Under the pieces are notes generated by a model that did not search any database, had not been told where the DNA came from, and saw only the letters and a program-made list of their open reading frames with translations. From NCBI RefSeq assembly GCF_023150065.1, contig NZ_JAKLLN010000005.1:1-64000 (forward strand): a stretch of 64,000 bases of DNA, written 5' to 3'. The stretch comes from Zoogloea sp. GTDB lineage: Bacteria; Pseudomonadota; Gammaproteobacteria; Burkholderiales; Rhodocyclaceae. This document shows, in pieces, positions 11,414 through 37,130 of the stretch. Each line of letters begins with the position of its first letter. Positions within the stretch are counted from its first letter, which is position 1. A program made the translations under genes and the position numbers.

Positions 11414-11818
11414 GATGGAATCCTTTGTAATCAGTGATCAACCAATTGCAAAGGCAGAAGCAGACATGCGCAGGCGCTGACCGGGCTGGAGATCCAGCAT
11501 GCGGGCAACCCGGCTATCCCGTTTGATCGGGACCCGTGGCTTTGCGTCCTGCAGTTGCCTGCAGTTTGCCTTTAATGGCTACAGACTAGCACCGTGATTT
11601 CAAATGTGAACCAGCGTAAAACACGGGCCGTGACATGCGCCACGTACCACCGCCACATGGGGTAGGAATGGGGTCGAAGGCGATCAGCGACACTTGCGGT
11701 GAGTACCGACAAAGCCGACAAAAGCGCTGTCGCAAAGTCGCCAGAGGAGCCTGGATGGCCGCCTTAGGGTGATCTCAAGATACTGTAGGGAAAAGGGTTT
11801 TCCGGTTTCTGGCGGTGC

Positions 11819-28576: not shown

Positions 28577-29569
28577 TCAGGCCGCCATCACTTCGGGCGC
28601 TTCCGTATCGCCGGGCCGGGGCCGCCTGAGCATGTTGGGCAGGCCCGGGTGGCTCGCCGGATGCGCCAGTGCCCGGGCGGCCTGATCGGCAAGGGCGTCC
28701 AGCAGGGCATAGCGGCGGCGATACATGGCGCGTTTCTGCATGGGCATCTCTTCCGGGCTGCGGCGGCGCCCCTGAAGGGGGATCCGCCAATGGCCGTCGT
28801 CGCCCAGCCGTGCGCCGTGCTCCTGCCAGAAGGCGCGGTAGTCGAAGCTGAACTCATCGATCTTCTTCTTGTACTGGGTGACCTGGTTGCAGCTGTCTAT
28901 GCCAACGATGCGCGTCACCCCCCATTGGGCGCACAGCAGGCGCAGCACCTCCAGCAGCAGGGCATGGGGGCGCAGGCCATGGCACTGCTTGGTCAGGCTG
29001 CGGATCGTCTCCCGGTTACTGCCGTCGGTACGCTTGAGCCCCTGCAGCGAGGCGATGAGCAGGGTATCCGCGGCCGTGAAGCCGAAGCTCAGGTTGAAGA
29101 GGGGGCGCGCGTCGGCGTCGTACAGGCACAGGGCCCAATAGCCCTCGATGCGCGTCGGGACGTTGAGGGTCAGATCCACCGCGCAGCCTGGGGCCTGGGC
29201 CACGCGCAGGCTGCTCCCGCTGGCCAACTGCCCGCACAGCAGGGGGCCAAAGTGGCCAGCCGCCGCGTCCAGATCGGCGATCATGGCGTGAAAGCGCTGA
29301 CGCAGGCCGAAGCGCCGATCCAGATAGCGCCGATAGAACACGTAAAAGCTGCGCCTGTCGGCGTCCAGCAGGCGCGCCCAGGCAGGGTGGCGGTCCAGGG
29401 CCTGCAGCAGCAGGCGGCGCTCGGGCGTGGTGAACCACGCGAGCAGACGGTACTTGAGGCGATGGAACACCCGCCGCGTACGGGCCGGCCCCAGCACGTC
29501 GGGCAGAGGCGGCCAGCTGGCGGCTGGGGTGGTTGGGGCGACGCGGGTGAAGGCATGAAGCGAGGACAT
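28577..29569 (-). CDS. VirK/YbjX (DUF535)-like protein
   Basis: RFHAMIADLDAAAGHFGPLLCGQLASGSSLRVAQAPGCAVDLTLNVPTRIEGYWALCLYDADARPLFNLSFGF. Confidence 0.7.
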   Translation of the reverse strand: MSSLHAFTRVAPTTPAASWPPLPDVLGPARTRRVFHRLKYRLLAWFTTPERRLLLQALDRHPAWARLLDADRRSFYVFYRRYLDRRFGLRQRFHAMIADLDAAAGHFGPLLCGQLASGSSLRVAQAPGCAVDLTLNVPTRIEGYWALCLYDADARPLFNLSFGFTAADTLLIASLQGLKRTDGSNRETIRSLTKQCHGLRPHALLLEVLRLLCAQWGVTRIVGIDSCNQVTQYKKKIDEFSFDYRAFWQEHGARLGDDGHWRIPLQGRRRSPEEMPMQKRAMYRRRYALLDALADQAARALAHPASHPGLPNMLRRPRPGDTEAPEVMAA

Positions 29570-29692: not shown

Positions 29693-29948
29693 CTATCGGT
29701 GAGTTGCGGGGGGCTGGATTGACGTGGTGCTACTTGTGTTGCGCATCACCGCCAGTGCGCCCCGAACCGCCTCCGCCTTGCCCATCTTTCAAGGGTGCCG
29801 CTTGTCATGAAAAGCGATGTGGCGTTTAATCCATCCCACATAAGCCTGCTTGGTTCGCAGATCGTAGTGCTTGACCTGATCCGCTCTCAAACCCGATCCA
29901 GCAAGCCGGGCAACGAGGTCGGGCCGCAAGAAGGGTAGACGACATCAT
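29693..29948 (-). pseudogene. Remnant of integron integrase (intI) N-terminal region
   Basis: Minus-strand translation, in shifted frames: LLDRV*ERIR / VKHYDLRTKQAYVGWIKRHIAFHDKRHP * KMGKAEAVRGALAVMRNTSSTTS, matching the tyrosine-recombinase SAM-like N-terminus of IntI (LLDQVRERIRxKHYSLRTExAYVxWIxRFIxFHxKRHPxxMGxAE...LAVxRNVSxST); two in-frame stops and a frameshift; catalytic domain missing; divergent from the cassettes as expected for intI. Confidence 0.8.
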
Positions 29949-30062
29949 GGCGGATTTCTTCGATAATTTTTTTGTATACAAAGATTTAGTGAGTTACGGC
30001 AGCTTGGGCGACAGTCGTGTAAGACACCAGAGGCGTCAGATGTCGTCTACTTCACGTTAGGC
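29949..30062 (+). promoter_or_regulatory. Putative attI region with first cassette junction at GTTAGGC (30056-30062)
   Basis: Lies between the intI start and cassette 1; GAGTTACGGCAGC...GGCGACAGTCG resembles attI-type sequence; ends TTCACGTTAGGC; no GCCTAAC partner box upstream, so attI rather than attC. Confidence 0.55.
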
Positions 30063-30071
30063 ATCAGCAAA

Positions 30072-30515
30072 ATGCAACGCGTCGTTGATCTGGAGCTCTG
30101 GTCGTTACCAAAGACACCTCTGCTTGAAGGCAAGGCCGTGGCTCAAGCATGTCGCTTGGCCACAAATGTGTCGCCTGAGATCGTTCTCGGTTTGAGTTTC
30201 GTGCCAGATGAAAAAGACATAACGAACCTCGACTTGATTTTTGCAGAGAATCCCTTGATAGAAATCGCATTCAAGAGCTTCTGCCGTGAGCAAGGCCTTG
30301 CAAGCGAGCCAAGCAACACGAATTCGGCGGCACGTTTCATAGCGTCCTCAGAAGGTCAACTTTTGGCTTGGTTGCACTTTCCGGCAGAGCCTGCGGGCAA
30401 AAGCATGGCGCTTTCTGTCTGCCGTTGGGCGGCAAACTCTGGTTATGTCATTCGTTCAGGTCAGAGTGAACACGCCCTCTCGGAATCAGAGGTTGAAGCG
30501 CTATGGGAAGGCTGA
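30072..30515 (+). CDS. Cassette 1 hypothetical protein
   Basis: 147 aa ORF filling cassette 30057-30567; no recognised family. Confidence 0.7.
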   Translation: MQRVVDLELWSLPKTPLLEGKAVAQACRLATNVSPEIVLGLSFVPDEKDITNLDLIFAENPLIEIAFKSFCREQGLASEPSNTNSAARFIASSEGQLLAWLHFPAEPAGKSMALSVCRWAANSGYVIRSGQSEHALSESEVEALWEG

Positions 30516-30573
30516 TGCCAACATTTCACTCCACGCGACAGCCTTCGGCGGCGCGTGAATTCAGGCGTTAGGC
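30516..30573 (+). repeat. attC1
   Basis: TGCCAAC...CACGCGACAGCCTTCGGCGGCGCGTG...GTTAGGC. Confidence 0.85.
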
Positions 30574-30580
30574 GCCATCA

Positions 30581-31099
30581 ATGATTCCCAATCTCCCGAT
30601 TGCCACTGACAACATCTATAAGTTCGCATGCTTGTTCGGCCTTGCAATCATCATTGCTTCAATACTCTCCTTCGTTAGCGTCTATTCCTCAACGCTCGAT
30701 AGAAAGGTGGCACTTAGCGAGGTAGTTATTTCTCTTGAAGCCAAGGAGCAACTAACAAAGGCTGAAGAAAACACTCTCGAACTGAACAAGAAGCTTGTTG
30801 AAGTCGCACAGAGAAATGAACGCTTCGCTCAAAGCATCATTGGCGGTGCTTTTGCAGTTGGGTTATTGCTCAGCATTTACGGTGCATATCATTGGCACAC
30901 CAAGATTCAGGCTCGTGATGACTTGCTCGCAACTTTGCAGATTGAAAGAATTCGAGCCGAGATCGCTAAGCTGCAACTTGATACGAATCGACTCAATAGC
31001 TCTGCGGGTGAGCAGACTGAACAGCAAGTAGTCGCTAAGAAAAATAACGTCCGGGTTCAACAGGAAAATGAAACAAAAACTACAGAACATATCGCCTAA
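30581..31099 (+). CDS. Cassette 2 membrane protein (two hydrophobic segments, helical linker)
   Basis: FACLFGLAIIIASILSFVSVY and SIIGGAFAVGLLLSIYGAYHW separated by a charged helical segment. Confidence 0.7.
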   Translation: MIPNLPIATDNIYKFACLFGLAIIIASILSFVSVYSSTLDRKVALSEVVISLEAKEQLTKAEENTLELNKKLVEVAQRNERFAQSIIGGAFAVGLLLSIYGAYHWHTKIQARDDLLATLQIERIRAEIAKLQLDTNRLNSSAGEQTEQQVVAKKNNVRVQQENETKTTEHIA

Positions 31100-31183
31100 C
31101 ACTGCGGTCAAGGCCGCTCCCTTCGGTCGCTGGGCGCTGCGCGATAAACCGCCGCGCAGCGCCCCTTACCAACAACGTTGGGC
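31094..31183 (+). repeat. attC2
   Basis: GCCTAAC ... GGGCGCTGCGCGATAAACCGCCGCGCAGCGCCC ... GTTGGGC. Confidence 0.92.
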
Positions 31184-31196
31184 CTAATACTTAGCG

Positions 31197-31649
31197 ATGG
31201 ATGCTCAAGACCCTCGTCTCCGTGAAATCTGGCTCCAAAAGGTGGTGCCGGTTGTATATCGCCAAGTCCGCCCAGAGCCAGTACTGCTGCGTATTCCTTA
31301 TGCGCAGAACAACTTTGAGTGGGTTCGTGGCGAGAAGCGCCACAAGCCTGACTGGAACGCAAAGTTCAAGTGTTGGGAAACGCCCGTTTCTTGGTTCGAT
31401 GAACTCATCGAGCGAACGCTTCGGAAGTTCGGGAAGGTCTACGTCATTCAGCTCTTTAAAGAACATCAGAAGTGCGCGCCGGCCTGTTGGAATGCAAAAG
31501 GCTTTCATTGTGAGTGCTCTTGCATGGGAGCCAACCACGGATCGGGCCATCCCGGTGGTCGGTGGCATGAGGTTTCAGAGACGTTTGCCTTTCAATGGGG
31601 GGCGCGCAAGTACTCATGCCGGCTTATCACTGCCGATGCTGCCCGTTAG
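31197..31649 (+). CDS. Cassette 3 Cys-rich hypothetical protein
   Basis: 150 aa; CAPACWNAKGFHCECSCMGANHGSGHPGGRWH cluster. Confidence 0.7.
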   Translation: MDAQDPRLREIWLQKVVPVVYRQVRPEPVLLRIPYAQNNFEWVRGEKRHKPDWNAKFKCWETPVSWFDELIERTLRKFGKVYVIQLFKEHQKCAPACWNAKGFHCECSCMGANHGSGHPGGRWHEVSETFAFQWGARKYSCRLITADAAR

Positions 31650-31718
31650 GCCCAACCCATCATTCCACCGGACCTTGCGCATAGATCCGCGCAAGGCCGG
31701 TGAATTCAAATGTTATGC
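31650..31718 (+). repeat. attC3
   Basis: GCCCAACCCATCATTCCACCGGACCTTGCGCATAGATCCGCGCAAGGCCGGTGAATTCAAATGTTATGC. Confidence 0.9.
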
Positions 31719-31732
31719 CTCAAGGAGCCTCT

Positions 31733-32290
31733 GTGGCTAATATCCCAACATACAAGGCGCTTCAGAAGTGCTATGACGCAAAATCCGCTGAAGTAAAAAG
31801 TCATTTCGGCCATCTTCCCCAGTTAATCGCTGACGGCCTCCCGTATGAAATTGCAATCGCGTACGTTTTCCTGAAAATTGAACAAGCTCAAAACAGAGCA
31901 CTATATGGCGGGGTCGTTAAGGTCCATCGCTGTAATGCGGAGTTCGCAAGGCGTTTGATGAATTTTCAACACCTAACCCGAGATGGGTTCAAAGAGCTCT
32001 ACAAAAATGTATTCGGCCGCGCTCTTCCAAAAGCAACAGCAGATTTAATGGCTGATGCGGAAAGTTCTCGCGACAAAGTTATTCACGGCAAGGATGTAAC
32101 GGATAGTGAGCTTCGTGGAGCTATTGCTGATGTCCTAGCTTATGCTGAGGCCTTCAATTCGGAAGTTAACGACGTTGCAGGCTTTAAACCGCTAGGCAAC
32201 ATGCGCGGCTTTAAGGGACGCGCCGAACCTCTCGACACACGTACTAGCAAATGGTTAATGCGAGGGCTTGGCTTTGGCGTTAAGGCATAA
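31733..32290 (+). CDS. Cassette 4 protein with HEPN-like RxxxxH motif
   Basis: GTG start preceded by AAGGAG; ATG at 31715 lies inside the core site TTATGC; motif SSRDKVIHGK. Confidence 0.65.
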   Translation: MANIPTYKALQKCYDAKSAEVKSHFGHLPQLIADGLPYEIAIAYVFLKIEQAQNRALYGGVVKVHRCNAEFARRLMNFQHLTRDGFKELYKNVFGRALPKATADLMADAESSRDKVIHGKDVTDSELRGAIADVLAYAEAFNSEVNDVAGFKPLGNMRGFKGRAEPLDTRTSKWLMRGLGFGVKA

Positions 32291-32380
32291 CACTGCAGTC
32301 GAGAGGGACAGCCAACAAGCTGCGCTTGTTCGTCCCCTCCGCGCTTCGCGCTCCGGCTGCCCCTCACTTCCACGTTGGGC
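32285..32380 (+). repeat. attC4
   Basis: GCATAAC ... GGGACAGCC...GGCTGCCCC ... GTTGGGC, 96 bp. Confidence 0.88.
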
Positions 32381-32404
32381 GCCGCAAATTATGCTTGTCG
32401 CAGT

Positions 32405-32785
32405 ATGGGGAGTAAATTAGTGAATATCGTGCGCCATGCAGTTACGTTAAGTGTCGCCACCCTGGCTCTGGCCATGGCCGGTTGCGCCATTACAAAGGAA
32501 ACCCACATGCCAGATGGGAGCAAGGGTTACAGCATTAGTTGTGACGGCGCGGCGGTAGGAATTAACGTATGTTTTGAAAAAGCAGGTGATCTTTGCGGCG
32601 CCTCTGGTTATGACCTCGTTACTCGAGAAGGTCAAATTATTCCTTTCGGGGTTAGCTCCGCAAGTGTATATGGAACGCCATCACAAATTCAGGGCCAGAG
32701 TTTTGCAACTTATGGTTCATTCAATAGTAAGAGCATAATGATTAGGTGCCGTAACCGGACATCCGGCAGTGTCCCAGAAAATTAG
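32405..32785 (+). CDS. Cassette 5 lipoprotein
   Basis: VTLSVATLALAMAGCAITKE lipobox. Confidence 0.7.
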   Translation: MGSKLVNIVRHAVTLSVATLALAMAGCAITKETHMPDGSKGYSISCDGAAVGINVCFEKAGDLCGASGYDLVTREGQIIPFGVSSASVYGTPSQIQGQSFATYGSFNSKSIMIRCRNRTSGSVPEN

Positions 32786-32793
32786 AACATCAT

Positions 32794-32863
32794 GCCCAAC
32801 CCATCACTCCACGGGACGCTGCGCGATGAAGCCGAGCATCGCCCGTGAATTCAGATGTTGGGC
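32794..32863 (+). repeat. attC5
   Basis: GCCCAACCCATCACTCCACGGGACGCTGCGCGATGAAGCCGAGCATCGCCCGTGAATTCAGATGTTGGGC. Confidence 0.9.
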
Positions 32864-32881
32864 GTTTATCAAGGAGACACA

Positions 32882-33556
32882 ATGAAAAGGGTTTCATGTT
32901 CTGTTGCAACCATATTCATGGTTGCTATTCTCTTGGCCGGATGCGCCTCTGAGAGAGTGATTTCCCCCAACATATCCGGCTCATCACGCACCGGTCTCAT
33001 AGTCTCTCCCGCAATTCTTGGTGCCGTATACGACGGACGGGCCTCGCAAGAACCGAATGATGCAGCGGCCATCCTTCAAGGCGACCTGAGTCGCATTTAT
33101 GGTACGTCTATTGAGTGGACGGACTATTTCGCAAAAACGCCTGCCGGTCGAGTCTCCGCACGAATCCGAATTGTTACGCTAGGCTCCTCTTTCGGAAATC
33201 GCTTGGTATCTTCAGTAGCCTTCGCAAATGCGGTCGGTTCTGCACAGGCAAGCGCAACAGGCCCTTGGGGCCCTGTTGTTGGTTCTGTATCATCCGAGCA
33301 GTCGGTTCTCGCCGGCTCATTTTCAGGCGAGGGTTGGTGGAATGGAGCTGCGTGGGTTGACTTGGAAGTGCAAGACAATCGAGGGAAAAAGCCAGTTGCA
33401 TTCACAGTGCCTATTGTCGCAGAGCATCGTGAGTCAAATATGTGGGGCTACGCATCGGGAGATAAAGCAGCAAAGGTGGCATGGGATCGCGTCGGAATTC
33501 AACTTACTAGGGCTTTGGATGCAATCGCTCGCACAGTCCGCGACCAACAGCCATGA
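32882..33556 (+). CDS. Cassette 6 lipoprotein
   Basis: MKRVSCSVATIFMVAILLAGCASER lipobox; AAGGAG RBS. Confidence 0.75.
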   Translation: MKRVSCSVATIFMVAILLAGCASERVISPNISGSSRTGLIVSPAILGAVYDGRASQEPNDAAAILQGDLSRIYGTSIEWTDYFAKTPAGRVSARIRIVTLGSSFGNRLVSSVAFANAVGSAQASATGPWGPVVGSVSSEQSVLAGSFSGEGWWNGAAWVDLEVQDNRGKKPVAFTVPIVAEHRESNMWGYASGDKAAKVAWDRVGIQLTRALDAIARTVRDQQP

Positions 33557-33609
33557 GAAAGCACGCTGCGCGATAAAGCCGCGCAGCGCCGGTTAGCTTC
33601 ACGTTAGGT
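33542..33609 (+). repeat. attC6 (weak R'' box)
   Basis: CGCTGCGCGATAAAGCCGCGCAGCG stem, GTTAGGT core; upstream box GACCAAC is imperfect. Confidence 0.75.
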
Positions 33610-33617
33610 GTCATCAA

Positions 33618-34310
33618 ATGGCCGCCCCAGTTTTCGAGCTAATTGACAACTCCACATTTCGGTTTGGAGAGCGAGTCGTCTCCGGCCATTTCAGCGATCT
33701 GCCGTTTCACGGAAAGTACCGCTATGTGGTGGAGGGAACGTCGGATGAGCGAGCTCGAATTCCCCAGCAGTTATTTTTTCACGACTTTATAGATATTCGC
33801 CCTGCAGATCTTCCGAACGGCATTTCTATTACCCTGCAACGCCCAAGGTCTGAATTTCGGCAGGTCAATTTTGCGGAGATCAAGAAGGTTGATGACCAAT
33901 CTGTACTTGTCATCATCCTGTGCTTTGACTACGTGGACTGGCATCTTCCTATCAACCTTCAGCTCTTTTCCGAGCGCTACCGTGACTCACTTCTGCGCCA
34001 AGTCGACAGCGCGGTTGAGGCTCACATCGACCAAGCCGATTTTGGCCTATTTATCAATTGCTCAATTTCGGTTGCGTCCGACGTCACGTTTCTTGCCGCT
34101 TACCGAAAGGCCGATAGCCAGATACTCGCAACCTACCGAAAGTGTCTTGAAGATCTCTACAAGACGCAGCCAGCCAAAAATGAGACAAAGCCGGCCAAAA
34201 CTGATGATTCTGAGGGGGCGAAGTGGTGGTTCCGTTATGTAATCGTTCCCGTTGTAGGCAGCGGCGCCGTTGCAGCAATCGCTGCGGGATTAATGGCCTT
34301 TGTGAAATGA
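33618..34310 (+). CDS. Cassette 7 protein with C-terminal membrane anchor
   Basis: 230 aa; charged linker then WWFRYVIVPVVGSGAVAAIAAGLMAFVK. Confidence 0.7.
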   Translation: MAAPVFELIDNSTFRFGERVVSGHFSDLPFHGKYRYVVEGTSDERARIPQQLFFHDFIDIRPADLPNGISITLQRPRSEFRQVNFAEIKKVDDQSVLVIILCFDYVDWHLPINLQLFSERYRDSLLRQVDSAVEAHIDQADFGLFINCSISVASDVTFLAAYRKADSQILATYRKCLEDLYKTQPAKNETKPAKTDDSEGAKWWFRYVIVPVVGSGAVAAIAAGLMAFVK

Positions 34311-34314
34311 TGGT

Positions 34315-34383
34315 GCCTAACCTTTCGGCGCACACCGGCCTTGCGCGAAAAGCCGCGCAAGGCCGGTAATCTCCACGTTAGCT
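34315..34383 (+). repeat. attC7
   Basis: GCCTAAC ... ACCGGCCTTGCGCGAAAAGCCGCGCAAGGCCGGT ... GTTAGCT. Confidence 0.92.
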
Positions 34384-34387
34384 GTCC

Positions 34388-35011
34388 ATGGAATCATCAC
34401 TCAAACCAAACCCGAACGGATTTGCAGTTGACCCGTTTGGCTACAGCGCGCTCGCATGGCACAAGTGGGGATTGCTGGCGTGTGCAAATGGCTTCGACAT
34501 AGACATATCCAAGCCGCCAACTGTCGCTGATCTGAAGAATCCAGTTCTTTGGCTATGTCACGCCGATGCGCTAACTGAAGCAGCTATCTGCTTGGTAAAG
34601 AATTCGCCGAATTTTGACAACACATCTCCAGATTTAAGGACGATCTGTCATAGTCAATATCACGCAGTAGCGTTGATGCTAGTCGGCTATAGTCTTGAGG
34701 TCTGTTTGAAGGCCATGGTCTTGATCAAACTTGGACTAGATGAATTCATACGGCAAGAAAGGAGCTATTTTCACCACCGGCTAGAAGAACTAGCTGATTT
34801 CATTCCGGACCTTAATGAGAAGGAGTTGGCGATCTTGAAATGCCTTTCTCACTTTGTTGTTTGGGCCGGTCGTTATCCGGACCCAGGCTCAAAGCGCATG
34901 AGCGATGCAGTGGATGTATTTGAAATATCTGAACAACACAAGATAAATGCCAAAGACCTTTTCTATCTGGCTGCAAAGGTAAGCCAGCATGTCAAGACAG
35001 TTGTTGACTAG
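34388..35011 (+). CDS. Cassette 8 hypothetical protein
   Basis: 207 aa; alpha-helical, FHHRLEELADFI...WAGRYPDP. Confidence 0.68.
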   Translation: MESSLKPNPNGFAVDPFGYSALAWHKWGLLACANGFDIDISKPPTVADLKNPVLWLCHADALTEAAICLVKNSPNFDNTSPDLRTICHSQYHAVALMLVGYSLEVCLKAMVLIKLGLDEFIRQERSYFHHRLEELADFIPDLNEKELAILKCLSHFVVWAGRYPDPGSKRMSDAVDVFEISEQHKINAKDLFYLAAKVSQHVKTVVD

Positions 35012-35013
35012 AC

Positions 35014-35080
35014 AGCTAGTCCATCACTCCACTGGGCCTGCGCGAAAAGCCGCGCAGGCCCGAGAAATGAAACGTTAGAC
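35014..35080 (+). repeat. attC8 (degenerate R'' box)
   Basis: AGCTAGT in place of RYYYAAC, then CCATCACTCCACTGGGCCTGCGCGAAAAGCCGCGCAGGCCC...GTTAGAC, aligned with attC3 and attC5. Confidence 0.82.
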
Positions 35081-35257
35081 GGAAAGTTCATGTATCCATG
35101 GGCGTGCCAACCAAGAAACAGCTCTTTCGTTGTGGACCGCCGACGGCGAGGTTGTCTGCCCGGTTGCTCGGGGTGCAGCTATGCTCATGTGGTCTTTGCT
35201 CCTTCACTCTTCGTCAAAGGCTCTCGGGCAAAGCCAGCATAGGGGAGAAAACGAGCT

Positions 35258-35581
35258 ATGAACCTTCTTTTCGTCTGTAGTGAGAACCGGCTGCGGAGCC
35301 CGACTGCTGAGGAGGTGTTCTCCAAGTACCCTGGCGTCAGTACCATCGGTGCGGGCACCAATGCAGATGCAGAAACAACCGTCTCCGGGGATCTCATTGA
35401 GTGGGCCGATGTGGTCCTGGTGATGGAGAAAAGTCACAGGAACAAGATTTCAAAGAAGTACAAAGAGCAGCTAAAGGGGAAGCGGCTGGTATGCCTGGAT
35501 ATTCCGGACATATACGCACGCATGGACCCAGATCTGGTGAAATTGCTCGAAGCCAGGGTCAAGAGATATGTTCGTTTCTGA
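35258..35581 (+). CDS. Low-molecular-weight protein-tyrosine-phosphatase-like protein
   Basis: LLFVCSENRLRSPTAEEVFSKYPGVSTIGAGTNADAETTVSGDLIEWADVVLVMEKSHRNKI. Confidence 0.75.
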   Translation: MNLLFVCSENRLRSPTAEEVFSKYPGVSTIGAGTNADAETTVSGDLIEWADVVLVMEKSHRNKISKKYKEQLKGKRLVCLDIPDIYARMDPDLVKLLEARVKRYVRF

Positions 35582-35696
35582 ATGGGCGAAAGTAAGCAGG
35601 CGTCCCAGGTGACACCCACGAAACCGCAGCCTTTTGTCTGCGCTTGCGCTTCAACCTCCGGCGCCAAGACCCCAACCCCACGCAGCATTGCGAACA

Positions 35697-36140
35697 ATGT
35701 CAGAAGCCCGGATTCATTGCGATAGTTGCGGGAAGACACTTCCAAACCCTCAGGCTGTTTGTCCAGCTTGCGATGCGCAGCTGGAGCGCGAGTTGAAGAC
35801 CTCCGCAAGTGGCAAACACCTGTGCCCCGTGTGCTCGCAGGGATTCGACAGACCCATCTTTGAACTCTGGCCGCGCGGAGCAAAGTGGTACACCCCAAGG
35901 CAGATGAAGCCGACCTGCCCGCACTGTAAGGCGTTCTTGCTGGATCGGAGAAATCCCCCCCTTCCTGCAAAGCTCATCTGGCTGTTTGCAGGCGTCACCG
36001 TAGTGGGCTACCTGGCGGTTCCGTCGCGTTATGAAGAGCCGGTCTTGGGCGTCATGCTGGCAATCTATGCTGTGGGTTCGTGGCGCTTTCGCGGGATCCG
36101 TGTCAATGACCGAGAGCGCTATGGCAGGGGTGAGGCCTGA
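35697..36140 (+). CDS. Zinc-ribbon hypothetical protein
   Basis: HCDSCGKTLPNPQAVCPACDAQ ... HLCPVCSQGF ... CPHCKAFLL, C-terminal hydrophobic segments. Confidence 0.55.
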   Translation: MSEARIHCDSCGKTLPNPQAVCPACDAQLERELKTSASGKHLCPVCSQGFDRPIFELWPRGAKWYTPRQMKPTCPHCKAFLLDRRNPPLPAKLIWLFAGVTVVGYLAVPSRYEEPVLGVMLAIYAVGSWRFRGIRVNDRERYGRGEA

Positions 36141-36213
36141 CCCTCCAATGAAGCCCCCGTCAAGCAGCCTTGTCCCAATCACCGGCCGTCAGGCCGGTTT
36201 TCCTTGATCCGAC

Positions 36214-36570
36214 TCACCCCTGCTGAAACTCAAACAACCCCGGGGCCCCTTCCTTGTACACCCGCAACCACATCAACGTAGCCGGCACCAGGGCCCGGAT
36301 TGCGAACCACAGGGCTTCGTCGTGGGTTGCCGGATCGGCGTTGAGTTGTTCAGGAAGGGCGCGCCAGGTGTTCCAGTCGAGTTCGGCGAACTGCTGGCGC
36401 TGGGCGTCGGGGAGGTCGGCGAGGTTGGTGGCCATGACGCCCACCAGGCGGGCCATTTCGGCGCGGGCCAGGCGGGAGCGGCGGAAGGTGGCTTCGTCCA
36501 TGTCTTCGGCCAGCACCAGGGCGTCGGTGCCGGCGTTGACGATGTTGGCGAGGAGGGCGGCGATGATCAT
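36214..36570 (-). CDS. Uncharacterised protein at end of the nifV-fix operon
   Basis: 118 aa MIIAALLANIVNAGTDALVLAEDMDEATFRRSRLARAEMARLVGVMATNLADLPDAQRQQF; tightly linked to the upstream TPR gene. Confidence 0.7.
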   Translation of the reverse strand: MIIAALLANIVNAGTDALVLAEDMDEATFRRSRLARAEMARLVGVMATNLADLPDAQRQQFAELDWNTWRALPEQLNADPATHDEALWFAIRALVPATLMWLRVYKEGAPGLFEFQQG

Positions 36571-37130
36571 TGGGTGCCGCCTTTCTTGAGGCGATCCAGG
36601 TAGCTGTCGCCCGTGGGGCCGGGGCGTTTGCCGGGCCGGGTGTCGGGGGCGGAGGCGTCCTTGAGGCTGGCGATGACGCTGGCGCCCATGTTGTCGGCGG
36701 GGTCGAGCTGGGCGGCTTTTTCGAGCAGGGCCTGGGCTTCGGCCCGGTCGCCGCGGCGCAGCCGGATGAAGGCCAGAGCCTTGAGGGTGAACAGCCAGAA
36801 GCGGGCCGGGCCGATGGCGCTGAAGTCGGCGTCGCCGCCCTGGACTTCGCGCCAGTGGCGGCCGATGCGGGCTTGTCCGGCGGCGGCATGCAGGCCGTCG
36901 CGGGCGCAGCGTTCGGCGTCTTCGAGGCGCTTGCGGTAGAAGTAGAACTTGTACTGGGCGAAGTACACCGGCAGGCAGTCGGGGGCCGACAGGCGGGCGC
37001 TCCACAGCAGGGCTTCGGCCTTGGTGGGGTCGGCGTGGGCGGCGGCGGCTTCGTGGAGCAGCCGGTTGACGCTCTCCGGCGCGTCACCGCCGAAGAGCGC
37101 CCGGGAGCTTTCGCCGGTAAAGAGGTTCAC
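36567..37130 (-). CDS. TPR-like protein in the nif/fix operon
   Basis: Repeated helical units, ALAFIRLRRGDRAEAQALLEKAAQLDPADN. Confidence 0.7.
   Translation of the reverse strand: MNLFTGESSRALFGGDAPESVNRLLHEAAAAHADPTKAEALLWSARLSAPDCLPVYFAQYKFYFYRKRLEDAERCARDGLHAAAGQARIGRHWREVQGGDADFSAIGPARFWLFTLKALAFIRLRRGDRAEAQALLEKAAQLDPADNMGASVIASLKDASAPDTRPGKRPGPTGDSYLDRLKKGGTQ

Follow-up and report, generated by a model that had tools for sequence, protein, structure and literature searches.

Inactivated chromosomal integrons are already known and have been well described in Xanthomonas, where intI at the ilvD locus carries a frameshift, a stop or a deletion and is accompanied by lineage-specific arrays (PMC12444791). 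Clusters of attC sites without an integrase, termed CALINs in IntegronFinder, have already been stated to be mobilised in trans (PMC12444791), and loss of the LexA box correlates with intI inactivation (PMC3108266). Our literature search yielded nothing on chromosomal integrons of Zoogloea or on orphan attI platforms in general, which does not prove that none has been reported. No description was found of several conserved attI-only platforms per chromosome with arrays still turning over.

The organism studied here was placed in Zoogloea by the relatives found in genome comparison. The stretch of DNA that was analysed (64 kb in all, hereafter the window) contains, at 29.7–35.1 kb, a chromosomal integron consisting of a broken, divergently oriented intI remnant, an attI site, and eight cassettes. 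As in Xanthomonas (PMC12444791), a broken chromosomal intI lies beside attI, with lineage-specific cassettes and syntenic flanks. However, a common intI lesion in Xanthomonas usually goes with identical arrays (PMC12444791), whereas the Zoogloea species that share the lesion have no cassette in common. Unlike the Xanthomonas ilvD-locus integrons, the Zoogloea genome has three homologous attI platforms, namely locus A (the window locus), locus B (beside prfC on contig C155), and locus C (contig C110). With at least two attC sites and no intact integrase nearby, the window array belongs with the CALINs, a class mobilisable in trans (PMC9024848, PMC12444791). An attI is not part of the CALIN definition, whereas locus A retains attI together with a stub of intI, and locus C retains attI with almost no intI. 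Like the SOS/LexA-regulated integron integrases (PMC3108266), intI of locus B has the sequence CTGTATTTATATACAG, which is near the E. coli-type LexA box; the window copy, in contrast, has no LexA box, as expected from the reported correlation (PMC3108266).

Table 1. Features of the integron at locus A and its flanks (positions in the window)
Feature	Position	Strand	Remarks
Left chromosomal flank	28577..29569	-	330-aa protein; syntenic in G020, broken in G012
intI remnant	29738..29951	-	First ~80 codons; 6-bp deletion, 1-bp frameshift, truncation, all common to G012 (contig C57)
intI promoter region	29952..30009		LexA box of homologous loci lost; 5 of 8 conserved end positions kept
attI	30010..30062	+	Crossover G30056|TT; 1 mismatch to clade motif
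Cassette 1 ORF	30072..30515	+	147 aa; no family; distant relatives 32–33%
attC1	30517..30573	+	R1, E 7e-9
Cassette 2 ORF	30581..31099	+	172 aa; membrane/coiled-coil by eye; PHROG 19745 (function unknown)
attC2	31094..31183	+	Long form, 90 bp; R1, E 2e-6
Cassette 3 ORF	31197..31649	+	150 aa; Cys/His-rich
attC3	31650..31718	+	Core GTTATGC at 31712; R1, E 1e-10
Cassette 4 ORF	31733..32290	+	185 aa; resembles Swt1-like HEPN weakly (E 0.036, below cut-off)
attC4	32285..32380	+	Long form; R1, E 9e-4
Cassette 5 ORF	32420..32785	+	Lipoprotein-like; PHROG 5685 (unknown); 37% relatives in Salmonella phages
attC5	32794..32863	+	R1, E 8e-12
Cassette 6 ORF	32882..33556	+	224 aa; lipoprotein-like, no family
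attC6	33542..33609	+	Degenerate, 5' (R'') arm lost; R1 unfiltered, 6.3 bits
Cassette 7 ORF	33618..34310	+	230 aa; by eye, a membrane anchor at the C-terminus
attC7	34315..34383	+	Core GTTAGCT at 34377; R1, E 9e-4
Cassette 8 ORF	34388..35011	+	207 aa; all-helical model; 50–54% homologues
attC8	35019..35080	+	Weak motifs, clear hairpin; R1 unfiltered, 10.6 bits
Right chromosomal flank	35258..37130		LMW-phosphatase-like gene, zinc-ribbon-like protein, gene 36567-37130 (-)

The attC sites were searched with a covariance model, R1, trained on 40 attC sites from other genomes and on none from the window. Over the whole window at E ≤ 10, R1 gave six matches only, all on the + strand within the array, each with E ≤ 1e-3, and all at cassette ends named in the preliminary description. 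Its eight attC palindromes were thereby recovered at six sites, and the other two (attC6 and attC8), which matched with the filters off, are degenerate. The GTTRRRY core claimed for every cassette is strict at only six of the eight ends, the exceptions being attC3 and attC7. One co-oriented ORF per cassette was seen in all eight, and the coordinates first proposed hold to within about 50 bp. The GC content of the array is 51%, compared with 65–66% in the flanks. An Rfam search of the window at gathering cut-offs matched no attC family; the sole match was a c-di-GMP-I riboswitch at 11.5 kb (11501-11580, − strand, 70 bits). The segment following attC8 (35088-35238) is 86% identical to part of contig C36 of G001, and it may be a ninth cassette devoid of its attC, because the G001 counterpart precedes an attC (L111 502-582).

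The integrase family PF13495 matched the remnant at 29768-29878 (− strand) with 34 bits against a cut-off of 27, across an internal TGA. The DNA of the remnant (29738-29949) is 83–86% identical to five homologous intI loci, with 8–13 gap positions, and 70% identical to the most divergent one. No functional intI is left at this locus, since only about 80 codons with a stop and a frameshift persist, and the divergent, broken N-terminal piece recognised at the outset is thus real. Immediately 5' of the first cassette, the window carries GACAGTCGTGTAAGAC...GTCGTCTACTTCACG|TT, which also occurs at eleven other loci; in total, the motif at 30010-30058 was found at 12 loci in six Zoogloea genomes, and the reversed-pattern control gave none. 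Where aligned, the sequences part directly after it, and this immediate divergence resembles the behaviour of an attI. The segment 30010-30062 is homologous to the attI of live loci and lies beside the array-divergent intI remnant. The dead intI, the attI and the eight-cassette array agree with the preliminary description, and the flanks, syntenic in several Zoogloea genomes, mark a conserved chromosomal site without a mobile carrier. A perfect inverted repeat, GTAGACGAC ... GTCGTCTAC (29935-29943 and 30042-30050), was observed in the stretch from the intI start codons to attI; most homologous loci have it as well, and so does the C110-type locus, which is otherwise without intI. A candidate cassette promoter within intI (TTGTCA-N17-TTTAAT) was rejected: its conservation is limited to Zoogloea and two genomes of Gallionella, and it has no key -11 A.

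None of the eight products could be assigned convincingly to a family of Pfam, NCBIfam, or PADLOC, in line with the original remark that most of them were unrecognisable. To see in the array the likeliest source of undescribed functions, as that description also did, is fair yet unremarkable, since products without a family match are usual for cassettes. For the products of cassettes 2, 3, and 5, relatives were found in phage families whose function is unknown or among genes of plasmids. The cassette 3 product has relatives of 51–61% identity in other Betaproteobacteria and one of 80.5% on a Methylococcus plasmid, beside which an attC search found none. Another relative, on a Mesorhizobium plasmid (L158 4986-5423), directly adjoins a CBASS phospholipase gene. 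In another family of the class, a distant homologue of cassette 7 precedes an attC of its own (L147). A homologue of cassette 8 in another Rhodocyclaceae genus has a strong attC just 5' and a second attC-like palindrome, seen by eye, on its 3' side; in Pseudoalteromonas, a homologue is followed by a repeat that we read as being of VCR type, with only a weak model score. Judging from these sequence contexts, cassette 8 looks like a travelling cassette. Its structure was predicted to be all-helical at moderate quality, and neither a fold match in the PDB nor a profile match was obtained, so that a HEPN identity is not supported for this product. Nor is it supported for cassette 4, whose match lay below the cut-off (E 0.036) and whose structure model was poor. 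A cassette of the prfC locus on contig C155 (L003 18950-19366) encodes a product with a HEPN domain match that is also below the cut-off (E 0.0013).

Comparison across Zoogloea species revealed that the flanks of the window locus are syntenic and that all eight cassettes differ, which is the pattern anticipated for an integron in the preliminary description. The window and contig C57 of G012 have in common the flank, the truncation junction, the 6-bp deletion, the 1-bp frameshift, and the loss of the LexA box; the G012 cassettes at both array ends did not match any window cassette. Because the lesions are common to both species and the cassettes are not, recombination went on after the death of intI. 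The term "fossil integron" therefore holds for the integrase in cis and fails for the platform, whose array contents were replaced after the intI lesions arose. The attI of the dead G012 locus is 98% identical to that of the live G020 locus, compared with 62% for the adjoining spacer. When the window-type loci of G000 and G012 are compared, identity is 90% for attI and 95% for the intI remnant, so that attI is not the better conserved of the two.

Locus C showed the same change of array after loss of intI in cis. In four species, nearly all of intI is gone with an identical junction, and the upstream flanks are 88–95% identical. The last 50 bp, corresponding to attI, contain one variable site among the four species, compared with 27/50 and 17/50 variable sites in the region 200–300 bp upstream. 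The first cassette is different in all four species, and each is joined precisely at G|TT. In the present genome, attI of locus C has no intI save possibly a few start codons and heads an array with 14 attC sites found by the model; a model search of the assembly located additional attC sites on contigs C175, C133, and C166.

At locus B, intI of this genome is without about 260 bp covering the catalytic C-terminal end. The B-locus IntI is full length (331 aa) in G007 and G020, where attI has no mismatch to the motif, and the G007 copy contains both Pfam integrase domains. G007, which is nearly complete (10 contigs), has one IntI of the B type and two attI sites. A search with full IntI as the query detected no intact copy in the present assembly, a 251-contig draft in which an intact intI could be missing, and no intact close IntI was seen in G012. 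Among the compared genomes, no ordinary cassettes common to platforms A, B, and C were found; matches of 90–99% between platforms, considered as signs of cassette traffic, proved to be insertion sequences or similar elements (DUF772 transposase), and the argument from such traffic was abandoned. Insertion sequences were also observed at or next to attC cores in several Zoogloea arrays (L115 13842-15497 and 16244-18557, the contig start of L119, and the contig ends of L108 and L137), and one with a DUF772 transposase has attC cores on both sides. These are possibly attC-targeting elements.

The best explanation of these results is that the window intI was inactivated before at least two species diverged and that its attI stayed usable; we assign this reading as a whole a probability of about 0.7. 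The points against it are the conservation of attI between G000 and G012, which does not exceed that of the intI remnant, the lack of ordinary cassettes common to platforms A, B, and C, the draft state of the assembly, and the failure to see an intact close IntI in G012. Three other explanations were weighed against it. The view that the locus is no integron, but a row of small genes unrelated to one another whose palindromes arose by chance, would fit the lack of families for most products, but it was refuted by the attC covariance search, whose independent matches are confined to the array, and it conflicts with the intI and attI homology, the drop in GC content, and the variable array between syntenic flanks. 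Alternatively, intI may have died and the array may have frozen and then decayed, the differences between species reflecting uneven erosion of a larger ancestral array. The degenerate attC6, the weak attC8, the lost LexA box, the intI remnant, and the assembly without intact IntI are all consistent with such a course, and in Xanthomonas pathovars, the arrays beside a dead intI are as a rule frozen (PMC12444791). However, the attI-proximal cassette is species-specific and joined at the exact crossover base in two species at locus A and in four at locus C, and erosion without an integrase is not expected to yield precise attI-attC joints because the common homology is only about 7 bp. This explanation is already disfavoured, and we consider it unlikely.

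Somewhat less likely still is the exchange of whole arrays by homologous recombination via the conserved flanks, with relatives carrying active integrons as donors. The flanks and attI are conserved enough for recombination, and the attI allele at locus A of G012 agrees with the locus B allele and not with the one in the window. Nevertheless, such donors would need the identical dead intI remnant at locus A or the intI-less junction at locus C, and therefore the donor arrays would also have changed without an integrase in cis.

The preferred reading, in which attI of the integrase-dead locus A is still used, includes service in trans by the B-locus IntI, which is the only candidate agent seen and is intact in two relatives. 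Integron integrases recombine folded bottom-strand attC hairpins with the G|TT site of attI. The integrase encoded at locus B, with its LexA box and thus of the SOS type, would have inserted and excised the cassettes of loci A and C in this way, acting in trans; from sequence comparison, it is the likely agent at both loci. The cassettes are presumably expressed. In the present genome, the B integrase would have recently lost its catalytic C-terminus through the deletion of roughly 260 bp, and the arrays are probably now frozen and stable because of this loss. Tentatively, and with odds somewhat below even, the arrangement may be a hub-and-satellite system in which a single integrase under SOS control acts on several dispersed platforms that have attI only and are kept by selection after intI loss. 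If true, this would represent a stable multi-site form of the integron, not decay.

The C110-type locus of four species, with intI gone, attI nearly invariant, and first cassettes all different, lends itself to a direct test of the trans hypothesis, and the present genome, in whose assembly the last integrase of B type is lost, provides a natural frozen control. An array that lacks intI is usually put down as a decayed CALIN. Should loci with attI alone remain active in trans, elements of this kind would be under-called, and "dead" integrons would not necessarily be frozen.
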